This document shows positions 1-7,475 of a stretch of 11,025 nt of DNA, in pieces. Within the stretch, counting starts at the first letter, position 1, and each line of letters begins with the position of its first letter. Source of the DNA: Clostridia bacterium (GTDB lineage Bacteria; Bacillota_A; Clostridia; Christensenellales; CAG-138). The notes under the pieces were generated by a model. The model was not told where the DNA came from, did not search any database, and saw nothing but the letters and a program-made list of their open reading frames with translations. A program made the translations under genes and the position numbers. The DNA is taken from assembly GCA_017459315.1 (NCBI GenBank), contig JAFUDD010000002.1, positions 1 through 11,025 of the forward strand, given 5' to 3'.

Positions 1-227
1 AGCGGCTCGGCATCGCGCAGGCGATCATGGAAAGCCGTTCGCTGCTGATTTTGGACGAGCCGATGAACGGTCTCGATAAGCACGGCGTCGCAGAGATGCG
101 TGCGCTGTTCAAAAGCCTTGCGACCGACGGGCGGACGATCCTGCTGGCGAGCCATAATATACAGGACATCGAAACGCTCTGCGACACGGTTTGCGAAATG
201 GACGCGGGCGTGATGACGATGCTGTAG
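1..227 (+). CDS. ABC transporter ATP-binding protein, C-terminal end (partial)
   Basis: This is the 3' end of an ABC transporter ATPase whose start lies before the window. The open frame runs from base 3 (first residues RLGIAQAIM, the helix that follows the LSGGQ signature) to a TAG at 225-227. Visible motifs are Walker B with its catalytic glutamate and D-loop (LLILDEPMNGLD) and the H-loop switch histidine (LLASHN). Walker A and the signature motif are outside the window. The tail after the H-loop is short (about 25 residues), with no extra C-terminal domain. The subunit would hydrolyse ATP at the inner face of the membrane to power a permease; the 'DEPMNGLD' form is common in drug/lantibiotic and Nat/CcmA-type exporters, but the substrate cannot be told. 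The ABC family is certain; the subfamily is a guess. Confidence 0.93.
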   Translation, partial: RLGIAQAIMESRSLLILDEPMNGLDKHGVAEMRALFKSLATDGRTILLASHNIQDIETLCDTVCEMDAGVMTML

Positions 228-347
228 GCATTGCCAATGATATTCGGCTTCGCCGAGTGATATTTGTCTGCGACAAATGATATTGCCCTGCGGGCAGTGA
301 TATTTGCCCCGATGGGGCAAGTTAAGGAAAATTCTCCTTCGGAGAAT
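227..347. repeat. Tandem array of mini-hairpins joined by TGATATT
   Basis: The 7-mer TGATATT occurs at 238-244, 258-264, 278-284 and 298-304, exactly 20 bp apart. Between copies lies a different short perfect inverted repeat each time: TCGGC/GCCGA (244-256, loop TTC), TTTGTC/GACAAA (263-277, loop TGC), TGCCC/GGGCA (284-296, loop TGC), TTGCCCC/GGGGCAA (304-320, loop GAT). A further one, ATTCTCC/GGAGAAT (331-347, loop TTC), follows after a diverged linker. A weak GGC/GCC pair (227-235) touches the stop codon of the ABC gene. Every loop is three bases and closed by C-G. The linker is conserved while the stems differ but remain paired, which suggests selection on structure. No T-tract follows, so it is not a set of ordinary terminators. 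Function unknown; it could shape mRNA ends or be a genome-wide dispersed repeat. Confidence 0.85.
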
Positions 348-438
348 CGAAACAGAATATCGCTGCGAAGCCATATAACTGCACCGCAGATGCAATACAA
401 CTTACAACATCCACCCGGCAGGGGAGAAGGGAAATACA
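348..438 (+). promoter_or_regulatory. Leader of the surface-protein gene with strong RBS
   Basis: This is the rest of the gap between the hairpin array and the surface-protein gene. A purine-rich ribosome site (AGGGGAGAAGGG, 420-431) sits seven bases before the ATG at 439 and fixes that start. A TATAAC at 374-379 resembles a -10 box, but no acceptable -35 lies 16-18 bp upstream, so the promoter call is weak. Nothing else was recognised here. Confidence 0.45.
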
Positions 439-5383: not shown

Positions 5384-6340
5384 TCATGCCTGCATTTCCG
5401 CTGCGGAATCGTTTTCCTGTGCCTTCGGCAGGCGCTTGCTCCACGTCGCCCAAAGCACGACAGCCGCAACGATGAACCCTACCATGCCGACAATGCCGGT
5501 GGACACGGGGCCAAGGAACGGGTCGCCGCCGTCGAACGTGAACAGCATCCCCAGCCCCGCGCAGCCGTTGATCATGCCGTGTCCGAAGATCGCCGGCCAT
5601 GCGGATCCCGTTTTCAGCGATACGTAGTCCAGCAGCGTTCCGGTCGTCACCGTAAACACGCACATCATGGCAATGCCGCCCCACGGCCAGCCGGGATAGC
5701 CCACGCCGTAGTTATGCCCGAGTGCGATGATCGGGGCGTGCCACAGTCCCCAGATCACGCCGGAAAGCAGCAGCATCGGCAGCGGCTTTAGGACCTTGTT
5801 CAGCTTCGGCACCAAATAGCCGCGCCAGCCCCATTCCTCCCCGAAGCACGCGACGGCGTTCAGCGCGGGCGCGATCAGCACCTCGGCAAATTGAACGATC
5901 AGCAAAGCCCAAAGCGGCATCGGCAGCGGCTGATCACCCGACAGGGACAGAATATAGCGCATGTTCGGATCGAACGTGTCCGGCCGGAGCAAAAACCACA
6001 GAACCGCGCCGAAGATCGTCAGCACGAGCGGGCCGAACCATGCAAACGCATAGATCGCCCAATGGCCCTTGAGGTTGGGCTTCAGGAAATGCTCGGTAAA
6101 GCCCTCCTTGGTGAGCAGCCGCGTTAAAAGCGCGCACAGCGCAGGAAAGAACATCTGCGCCGCGACCGCAAGCTGATAGAACAGCGCGACCTCTGCACCG
6201 CTTGTTTCCGTCAGGCGGGACAGCGGCACAAGCACAAGGAAGTCATACGCATACGTCAGCGCAAAGGTCAGCCCCAGAAAGACGCCGATGCGTTTCCATA
6301 CGGTATTGATTTCGTCACGGGATAAGAGACTCGCTTTCAT
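5384..6340 (-). CDS. CPBP family intramembrane glutamic endopeptidase (second of tandem pair)
   Basis: A 318-residue polytopic membrane protein with the three motifs of the CPBP (CAAX protease and bacteriocin-processing, Abi) family: EEWGWRGYL with E168, E169 and R173; GLWHAPI with H201; and FGHGMIN with H254 and N258. These residues form the active site of the Rce1-like glutamic protease fold. Several hydrophobic helices are visible (about 17-40, 52-74, 95-118, 141-163, 187-205, 221-240, and one near the C-terminus). Bacterial members act in bacteriocin self-immunity, peptide maturation or unknown membrane proteolysis; the substrate here is unknown. The start at 6340 has GGAGG nine bases upstream; a TTG at 6367 would be longer but lacks a ribosome site. 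The gene overlaps the preceding CPBP gene by 26 bases, so translation is probably coupled. Confidence 0.93.
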   Translation of the reverse strand: MKASLLSRDEINTVWKRIGVFLGLTFALTYAYDFLVLVPLSRLTETSGAEVALFYQLAVAAQMFFPALCALLTRLLTKEGFTEHFLKPNLKGHWAIYAFAWFGPLVLTIFGAVLWFLLRPDTFDPNMRYILSLSGDQPLPMPLWALLIVQFAEVLIAPALNAVACFGEEWGWRGYLVPKLNKVLKPLPMLLLSGVIWGLWHAPIIALGHNYGVGYPGWPWGGIAMMCVFTVTTGTLLDYVSLKTGSAWPAIFGHGMINGCAGLGMLFTFDGGDPFLGPVSTGIVGMVGFIVAAVVLWATWSKRLPKAQENDSAAEMQA

Positions 6341-7475
6341 TTTGCTGTACCTCCGCGGGTTGTTCAAAGCGTTTGGAGAATTTGGGAAGCAGCAGCACCG
6401 TCACAAGCGCGAGCGCCGAAATCGGCAGCCGCAGCAGTGCCCATGCGCTCTGCTCGTTCAAAAGCGACATGGCGAGCATCAGCAGATCGGTTGTGACAAG
6501 CGTGACGAGCCCGAACACGCGCATGATGATCATGCCGGGGTTGCGCCACGTTGCGTTCGTCGCGCCCGCAAAGTCGGACACGGTGGGGGAGAGCAGCGGA
6601 TCGTGCGCCTTTTTGCGGAGGAGCAGCACGATCACACCGATCACGCCGAGCGAGATCACGGCGATATTCCAGCCAAGCAGGATGTCGATATCCGCAAGGG
6701 CGAAGAACTCCGGCAGCGTCGCGGTCAGGTTGATCATGCCGTGCAGCAGCATCGTATAGACGATCCTGCCCGTCCGCATATAGACCATGGCGAACAGCAG
6801 ACCGATGAAGAACGCAAGGAAGAACTGTCCGCTGTTGCCGTGGATCAGACCGAACAGCAGCGCGCTCACGAGCATCGCAAAGCCTTCGCCGTAGGGATGC
6901 AGGCGGTCGAGCAGGAATTTCCGGCATGCCAGCTCCTCGAAGATCGGCGCGCCGATCACCATATAGAGGTACATCGGGATCGCCTCGGTCTTCAGCCCGT
7001 TCAGCAGTTCATCCATGCCGTTCGATTCGGTCACGCCGAAGAACATCGGCAGGTTGCCGATCAATACGCCGATGCCCCACAGGCCGTAGGTCATCAGCGC
7101 CACGACGAGAAACTGCCCAAGCGACAGCGATTTCTTTTCGAGGGGGACGCGCTCGGTCAGAATCTTTCGGATGATCAGCAGGCCGACCGTCATGCCGACG
7201 ATCATGCCGAGCACATAGACGAGCAGTATCCAGCGTATCCCGCCGGTTTCGCGCAGCAGCGTCATGATGCTGTCCATCGACAGGCGTAAATCACCCTGCA
7301 GCTGCGGTACGATCAGCACAAAGGATACGATAACCGCCGCGATCACAACGAAGATCGAGCCGATCATTTGCAGACTTTGATACTGCACGAGCATCGAAAT
7401 CCCCGCGCGGTTGTACGCACGCTTCATCAGCGCGGGTTTATCCGGCACGGCCGGGGTATTCACAGGTTGTTCCAT
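6315..7475 (-). CDS. CPBP family intramembrane metalloprotease-like protein (first of tandem pair)
   Basis: A 386-residue membrane protein with CPBP/CAAX-protease motifs FEELACRKFL (E180, E181, R185), LFGLIHGN (H212) and LLHGMIN (H245, N249). About eight hydrophobic segments are visible, two beyond the catalytic core (roughly 264-284 and 325-370) and a soluble polar tail. It is clearly a diverged paralogue of the next gene rather than a recent duplicate, since only the motifs align by eye. The ATG at 7475 has AGGAGG eight bases upstream. It follows the ribbon-helix-helix gene by 38 bases and overlaps the second CPBP gene by 26, so all are probably one transcript from the promoter at 8891-8919. 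Substrate unknown; a role in membrane stress or peptide immunity is inference. Confidence 0.92.
   Translation of the reverse strand: MEQPVNTPAVPDKPALMKRAYNRAGISMLVQYQSLQMIGSIFVVIAAVIVSFVLIVPQLQGDLRLSMDSIMTLLRETGGIRWILLVYVLGMIVGMTVGLLIIRKILTERVPLEKKSLSLGQFLVVALMTYGLWGIGVLIGNLPMFFGVTESNGMDELLNGLKTEAIPMYLYMVIGAPIFEELACRKFLLDRLHPYGEGFAMLVSALLFGLIHGNSGQFFLAFFIGLLFAMVYMRTGRIVYTMLLHGMINLTATLPEFFALADIDILLGWNIAVISLGVIGVIVLLLRKKAHDPLLSPTVSDFAGATNATWRNPGMIIMRVFGLVTLVTTDLLMLAMSLLNEQSAWALLRLPISALALVTVLLLPKFSKRFEQPAEVQQNESESLIP

Follow-up and report, generated by a model that had tools for sequence, protein, structure and literature searches.

MITEs and fold-back elements are small, mostly gene-free DNAs with inverted ends, many copies, sharp edges and empty sites. 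The element described here resembles MITEs in being short, in its high copy number, in its inverted terminal sequences and in the lack of a transposase among nine open reading frames (ORFs) scanned; unlike MITEs, it shows no target-site duplication, and its ends keep linkers and hairpin shape rather than stem sequence. REP/BIME sequences are likewise composed of a short unpaired tag and a hairpin, in high copy and in inverse-orientation pairs, and, as far as the available sections of these reports go, REP stems and loops vary between families (PMC3733652, PMC8266576). The REP/BIME tag, however, is GTAG or CGTC, whereas the linker here is RTGAWATN (commonest forms TGATATT, TGATATA, TGAAATT, TGAAATA, CTAAATT and TGAAATC, in a search that itself asked for such linkers). 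Also unlike REP/BIME, the arrays reach up to 13 hairpins with differing stems side by side in one arm, and no Y1 gene was found in several element-rich draft genomes. The promoters of the phage N4 virion RNA polymerase are small hairpins with a three-base loop, extruded from supercoiled DNA; the accessible part of the source states that they need a C-G closing pair and a loop G and A, extrude in vivo and allow bases elsewhere to vary as long as the hairpin survives (PMC4496689). Those are single phage promoters, whereas the present arrays are chromosomal and are likened to them by hairpin form alone, not by promoter role. Integron attC sites are folded single strands read by an enzyme (PMC8266576, in excerpt), as is proposed below, but the units here are near-perfect mini-hairpins. 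Until its mover is known, the element is best filed with the REP/MITE kind.

The name that the element already carries comes from RNA biology. Gut-1 was reported among noncoding RNAs from environmental sequences, and the part of that article at hand places it in the human gut only (Weinberg et al., 2010, PMC2864571); its Rfam entry, RF01706, has the type 'Gene; sRNA', and the Gut-1 consensus is itself a series of hairpins with UGAAAU joins. The locus examined here shares these hairpins and UGAAAU-type linkers and scores above the gathering cut-off; set against the published description of a human gut noncoding RNA, it belongs to a dispersed, inverted-pair DNA element with DNA-type loops. Our search, which left subscription journals mostly outside, found no literature on Gut-1 or RF01706 beyond PMC2864571, and among the titles listed, again mostly without subscription journals, none was relevant to TGATATT hairpins or to MITEs or palindromic repeats of gut Clostridia. 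The features of the locus, within a window that comprises the whole stretch of DNA analysed (11,025 bp), are as follows.

3..227, forward strand: C-terminal end of an ABC transporter ATP-binding subunit; ORF with its frame open leftward, stop TAG at 225-227.
217..288, forward strand: match to Rfam RF01706, Gut-1; score 50.9 bits, gathering cut-off 50.
236..304, forward strand: four linkers A[AG]TGATATT at 236, 256, 276 and 296; exact 20-bp period, RTGAWAT being the linker type of the family.
245..255, forward strand: hairpin 1, CGGC-TTC-GCCG; loop on the opposite strand GAA.
265..275, forward strand: hairpin 2, TGTC-TGC-GACA; loop on the opposite strand GCA.
285..295, forward strand: hairpin 3, GCCC-TGC-GGGC; loop on the opposite strand GCA.
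305..319, forward strand: hairpin 4, TGCCCC-GAT-GGGGCA; loop on the opposite strand ATC, not GNA.
320..347, forward strand: inner block AGTTAAGG and hairpin 5, ATTCTCC-TTC-GGAGAAT (331-347); loop on the opposite strand GAA.
348..405, reverse strand: possible decayed right (inverted) arm; weak, its right edge a guess.

Four forward-strand copies of TGATATT, at 238, 258, 278 and 298, account for every copy in the window, where 0.62 would be expected by chance and where four or more arose in one of 200 shuffles. The exact 20-bp period given by the initial annotation was confirmed, as were its perfect stems, its triloops (TTC, TGC, TGC, GAT and TTC, in that order) and its fifth hairpin of 7 bp. 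Each stem does pair with itself, as it had stated, but its claim that the stems share no sequence was slightly too strong, stems 3 and 4 both containing GCCC. Nor does the array begin at the stop codon: it follows the TAG at 225-227 by 8 nt, with AATGATATT from position 236. The annotation was silent on the inner GTTAAGG block, which is common in related elements. Positions 225-365 fold better than shuffled sequence with either RNA (z -3.65) or DNA (z -3.95) parameters, 0 of 200 shuffles equalling them under each set, and four of the five hairpins have a C-G-closed mini-hairpin loop of the GNA/GNNA type. Beyond the array, traces of an opposite arm at 348-377, likewise absent from the annotation, consist of inverted-repeat pairs (239-252/348-361, 241-253/365-377 and 294-304/356-366) and a single linker-like CGATATT on the minus strand at 362-356, and no Rfam match was obtained on the minus strand of 150-450. 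The right arm of this element looks decayed, if it is an arm at all.

The array is situated between the stop of the ABC gene and a 664-aa CARDB-domain protein that starts at 439. The upstream ORF reads LLILDEPMNGLD (Walker B type) and ASHN, and its name was taken from this motif because the 74-aa fragment had no Pfam match. Two terminator-like sites lie in the array region against 0.4 expected, and no promoter-like site was found at 150-520. Using the 664-aa neighbour as a guide, no orthologue of the locus was recovered among 31 genomes of the order of genome G001 (E<=1e-30), and in the order of genome G007 one of 394 genomes (E<=1e-20) had just a 28% partial match. All 16 genomes of the family of G001 matched the protein, in short stretches only and nearly all within its repeat-rich first quarter, among the matches listed; metagenome proteins are up to 97% identical to it. 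Elsewhere in the window, on the minus strand at 5384-7475, stand two adjoining ORFs of the CAAX-protease-like (Rce1-like) type, whose listed coordinates overlap by a small amount.

The Gut-1 match exceeds the gathering score by a narrow margin, the first hairpin of the model being a poor fit, and a second, sub-threshold match covers 295-358 (30.9 bits). The initial annotation had suspected a dispersed but undescribed element of gut Clostridia with TGATATT-linked hairpins. Dispersal was borne out by copies in other genomes; the match to Gut-1 (PMC2864571) rules out that the element is undescribed. The feature is thus real and already named, and the biology attached to the name is incomplete and probably wrong. 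The R-scape and Term-seq experiments that had been suggested presume an RNA, whereas the signature looks DNA-like.

A scan of a collection of species genomes for three linkers at a 20-bp period returned 56 stretches, of which 17, judged by eye, are hairpin arrays; these come from 10 genomes that, by their titles, belong to Clostridia of the gut or rumen or to related bacteria. All 10 contain Gut-1 matches, from 7 to 95 per genome (E<=1e-3), in what is no random sample, the genomes having been chosen by the array pattern. Even sampling of the class, with stricter filters, gave Gut-1 matches (E<=1e-6) in 52 of 391 genomes, 39 of them above the cut-off, and within the family of G007 the figure was 14 of 197. 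Window positions 225-350 had no match in plasmid and phage collections, and the triple-linker pattern gave five stretches in a viral collection, none a hairpin array by eye. Most of the genomes are drafts, read in part. A further set of 40 loci (set 2) came from eight additional genomes (G658, G737, G748, G803, G820, G857, G948 and G966), picked from the class-wide Gut-1 matches by match number and contig size with tRNAs ignored.

In the loci read, Gut-1 matches occur as converging pairs. In the typical element a centre is enclosed by a left arm and an inverted right arm, each arm being built from repeats of an RTGAWATN linker and a perfect stem, mostly of 4-8 bp, with a 3-4-nt loop; 48 of 59 elements measure 75-320 bp, the longest 1101 bp. 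A converging partner within 450 bp was present for 43 of 68 arrays in G007 (8 of the unpaired ones near contig ends), 27 of 42 in G011 (3 near contig ends) and 6 of 8 in G115, compared with only 9 of 46 in G001 (5 near contig ends). The arrays of G001 are longer, with up to 13 detected hairpins, and flank centres of other repeats, which in part explains its low pairing. By eye, the centres of three long G001 elements (L242 5620-5980, L243 9550-9860 and L257 9040-9500) are tandem repeats whose unit, very roughly 100 bp long, contains an AAACGCC...GGGCGTTT hairpin. In set 1, 46 of 115 arms have the block [GA]T[TG][AG]AGG after the innermost linker, against 2.2% of random 40-mers. A sister element has GCTAAAT linkers throughout (L424 1465-1584 and L437 1718-1799), the L437 copy lying behind a tRNA-Lys gene.

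The element is dispersed in a manner that differs sharply between close relatives. G007 has 57 Gut-1 matches (E<=1e-6) and its sister species G228 and G229, which are 77-88% identical to it in the shared region, have none; matches are also lacking in 10 of 14 genomes of its genus. All three G007 elements checked at orthologous spacers are missing from G229 and G228, and by eye none was seen in other relatives with both flanks placed; these spacers are too diverged for the exact junctions to be read. Four copies of one subfamily are 85-90% alike, with unrelated flanks and sharp edges (AATGATAT...ATATCATT). When 59 elements, whose edges are placed to within a few bases, were compared with shuffled flanks at offsets of 0-5 and lengths of 2-9, target-site duplications showed no clear excess. 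Runs of the rho-independent-terminator type (T5 at the left end or A5 at the right end) mark 16 of 59 elements against 5.6% of random positions, a control that is generous to the placement claim because random positions include coding DNA; the opposite-side runs occurred 2 and 2 times.

In set 2, a tRNA 3' end lies no more than 110 bp upstream of 27 of 41 paired elements (5.0% for random placement in the same loci). The tRNA genes concerned are of 15 isoacceptor kinds, and no element had a tRNA only on its 5' side. Elsewhere the link is found in 1 of 21 elements in G007, 3 of 13 in G011, 1 of 3 in G115, 1 of 2 in G197 and 0 of 3 in G001. The usual order after the CCA is GAAAAAAG, a terminator hairpin, CTTTTTTC and AAYGAAAT. 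Across 55 loci (set 2 and 15 others), an element stands behind 38 of 79 tRNA genes (a first pattern, too strict, gave 2 of 79), and T?GAAAA, a pattern chosen post hoc, directly follows the CCA in 31 of the 38 tRNAs with an element and in none of the 41 without. On the far side, a loose pattern detected an ATC...CCA tail (for example GCATCTAAACCATTCGGCTCTTCCA) in 15 of 33 elements, often with a terminator beyond it; between L402 and L437 the tail reads GCATCTAAACCATTCGGCTCTTCCA or GCATCATTATTGTTCTGCTTTGCCA, about 10-20 nt outside the last linker, and L407 has two units in tandem behind a tRNA-Tyr gene. An empty site is provided by the tRNA-Met gene of G702, which equals that of G748 without the element and has a terminator directly after its CCA. 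The same terminator recurs in G748 behind tRNA-Glu, past the far end of an element, and may itself be a repeat. Together, this suggests that insertion occurs exactly at the CCA and that the terminator is carried along. Five genomes have an element at the tRNA-Lys site, one of them an element of the GCTAAAT type, and therefore some insertions may be old or kept.

The hairpins themselves bear a signature that is DNA-like. Among 441 distinct spacers, 298 have a perfect stem of at least 5 bp, compared with 10.3 after shuffling, and in set 2 the count is 83 of 157 against 3.5. A plain decayed tandem repeat, or hairpins arisen by chance, has practically no probability left in spite of the exact 20-bp period and the 39 of 56 same-pattern stretches that by eye are plain repeats or chance, being ruled out by this excess of stems. 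Among 27 near-copy pairs, 37 stem changes are two-sided, all of them Watson-Crick and none non-pairing, and 33 are one-sided (A-C 17, G-T 8, other 8); these are counts of cells rather than events, as pairs share copies, and 50 gapped hairpins are left out. The initial annotation's premise that stems vary with compensation thus finds strong, incomplete support: 37 of 70 changed cells are compensated, and 33 of 70 are not. At variable stem positions, mismatches in set 1 comprise G-T 14, A-C 25 and other 38 (n=2460 pairs), and in set 2 G-T 3, A-C 8 and other 20 (n=829 pairs); the pooled G-T 17 against A-C 33 (p 0.03) is a weak lean to G-T on the opposite strand. When whole hairpins including linker letters are counted in set 2, the left arm has G-T 40 and A-C 4, and the right arm, on the top strand, A-C 34 and G-T 6. 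We attribute this G-T wobble on the TGAAAT strand to the counted R of RTGAAAT, which at outer ends without a preceding hairpin is A 31, G 27 and C 1 times (n=59). Two earlier tallies are superseded, namely a stem count that included linker letters (Watson-Crick 2574, G-T 37, A-C 32, other 24) and a 20-bp-unit statistic with non-clostridial tandem repeats mixed in (GNA 87 of 197; stem cells paired 72% against 33% permuted).

On the ATATCA strand, 149 of 229 triloops are GNA and 3 are TNC; of 77 tetraloops, 53 are GNNA (only 20 of these GNRA) and none is TNNC; the closing pair is C-G in 286 of 306. Set 2 behaves alike (GNA 38 of 59, TNC 1; GNNA 20 of 33, with GNRA 8, and TNNC 0; C-G closing 85 of 92). 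Loop type tracks the linker strand, with TNC 26 and GNA 0 in left arms and GNA 19 and TNC 0 in right arms. According to the available portions of the literature, a GNA or GNNA loop with at least two G-C pairs makes an extraordinarily stable DNA mini-hairpin (PMC4686876), and d(cGNNAg) is a selected stable DNA tetraloop, as worded in a reference title in PMC5090098. That the loops are of this published extra-stable type suggests that the hairpins fold as DNA. Linkers are uniform as well: in G007, the one genome in which this was counted and only for letters matching TGA[AT]AT, none of the 42 arms mixes the two forms of the fourth letter, TGAAAT and TGATAT (uniform arms after shuffling: mean 10.9, maximum 23), and both arms share the linker type in 19 of 21 elements, the other two being hybrids. 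Such uniformity would fit a protein-binding site with two specificities.

On balance, the array in the window probably represents a single arm of a mobile DNA element that is small, non-autonomous and resident in gut Clostridia, and the Gut-1 model of Rfam would describe an arm of this kind. The arms resemble recognition ends, with sequence supplied by the linkers and shape by the hairpins. An arm would turn single-stranded through replication, or through extrusion under negative supercoiling as in the phage N4 promoters; the ATATCA strand would then fold into a string of mini-hairpins with unpaired linkers between them, and a trans-acting recombinase or transposase might recognise linker sequence and hairpin shape while ignoring stem sequence. 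Linkers would change together because they must match the recognising enzyme, and landing behind a terminator, or apparently carrying one in the tRNA group, would leave host transcription intact. The full proposal, that the ends of a mobile element are read by shape by an enzyme that binds freely varying, self-complementary DNA mini-hairpins with fixed linkers evolving in concert, and that one lineage inserts exactly at the tRNA 3' CCA with its own terminator, is put forward tentatively and is doubtful as a whole. Several findings weigh against the mobile-element view: no transposase or recombinase among the ORFs scanned, no Y1_Tnp match in G007, G011 and G082, no target-site duplication, one-sided stem changes that almost equal two-sided ones in number (33 vs 37), the G-T wobble of set 2 when linker letters count as stem, tRNA sites occupied in several genomes, the poor pairing of G001 arrays, the scarcity of tRNA links in G007, and, for the window itself, a decayed right arm and a locus for which no orthologue was found.

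Stems might alternatively be maintained by mutation, template switching copying one hairpin arm onto the other in what is otherwise an ordinary MITE; the 'process that writes hairpins' of the initial annotation is a rival of this type. We regard this account as rather unlikely. Two-sided changes without wobble intermediates are what it would produce, template switching has been reported to create and maintain hairpins (PMC8794818, in the part available), and homogenisation of arms is on record in the accessible text of PMC8604942. The one-stranded loop bias (GNA 149 vs TNC 3; GNNA 53 vs TNNC 0) speaks against it, though switching can invert loops; in the yeast study, as far as its available text goes, inversion occurred only with arms >9 bp (PMC8604942), so the bias counts less against switching at stems of 4-8 bp. 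Uniform linkers and the near-equal number of one-sided changes are left unexplained by template switching.

It is unlikely, in our estimation, that Gut-1 is a structured small RNA or a 3'-UTR or terminator-like RNA array with its hairpins under RNA selection, as its Rfam type, the gathering-level match and the published description (PMC2864571, as available) would have it. Compensated stem changes, the position of the array behind a gene of the same direction, the good RNA fold (z -3.65) and the two terminator-like sites (vs 0.4 expected) agree with an RNA, which could also claim the G-T wobble that set 2 displays when linker letters count as stem. Variable stem positions, by contrast, have no G-T excess (14 vs A-C 25; 3 vs 8), and the GNNA tetraloops show no GNRA preference (20/53). 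Moreover, since loop type follows the linker strand, one transcript would hold opposite loop types in its two arms. The absence of a promoter-like site at 150-520 and a copy number that varies between 57 matches and zero among sister species also count against an RNA. RNA covariation as the sole reading is not favoured, given the loop types and the lack of a G-T excess.

We think it quite unlikely that the element is of the REP/BIME type and owes its movement to a Y1 HUH enzyme (TnpA-REP or IS200/IS605) acting on single-stranded hairpins. The combination of tag and hairpin, the inverted pairs, the dispersed copies and the lack of target-site duplication would all suit such an enzyme, and Y1_Tnp genes were found in 7 of 24 genomes searched, including G001, G002, G004, G010, G115 and G197. 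However, none was found in the element carriers G007, G011, G082, G094 and G206, draft genomes in which absence is not final, and the tag is TGAWAT, neither GTAG nor CGTC. With carriers that lack a Y1_Tnp match, Y1/RAYT as a general mover is not supported.

Should the reading of Gut-1 as a mobile DNA element be true, an Rfam 'small RNA' of 52 of 391 sampled class genomes would become a mobile element and its annotation would be corrected. Nature would also have provided an example in which numerous compensated hairpin changes persist at the DNA level, so that selection on DNA hairpins is separable from template switching. An enzyme that reads shape and tolerates any stem, and placement at tRNA 3' ends, would interest both basic and applied research. 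Twelve converging pairs are spaced 450-9000 bp apart, six of them with ORFs of at least 100 aa. No transposase or recombinase was detected in the nine ORFs inside four of these wide pairs (L254, L271, L367 and L382), the ORFs of L183 and L252 lying outside the scan. The nine comprise a formate/nitrite transporter, a serpin, a SUFU-like protein, a weak DUF4064 match, an HTH protein and four unmatched sequences, and look cargo-like or like ordinary genes. In L382 (3087-4188) the gene between the arms is a membrane-like ORF without a Pfam match and in L367 (1503-2212) it is an HTH ORF; the arms may move cargo.

Two further observations concern sequences around or beside the element. Elements of G011 and G206, and partly of G002 (L262, L234, L263, L265, L233 and partly L188), have a common outer flank, GAATTCGAACTCTT(A/G)CA, which in several cases follows TTTTGCGYRTG and in some frames reads as a short C-terminus; this flank may belong to a larger unit or mark a preferred site. 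Lastly, L213 2960-3350 (contig G007:C45) is another dispersed, hairpin-rich repeat of about 385 bp, without the linkers studied here; the G007 matches listed include at least 17 more copies of it, complete or partial, that are 83-92% identical.
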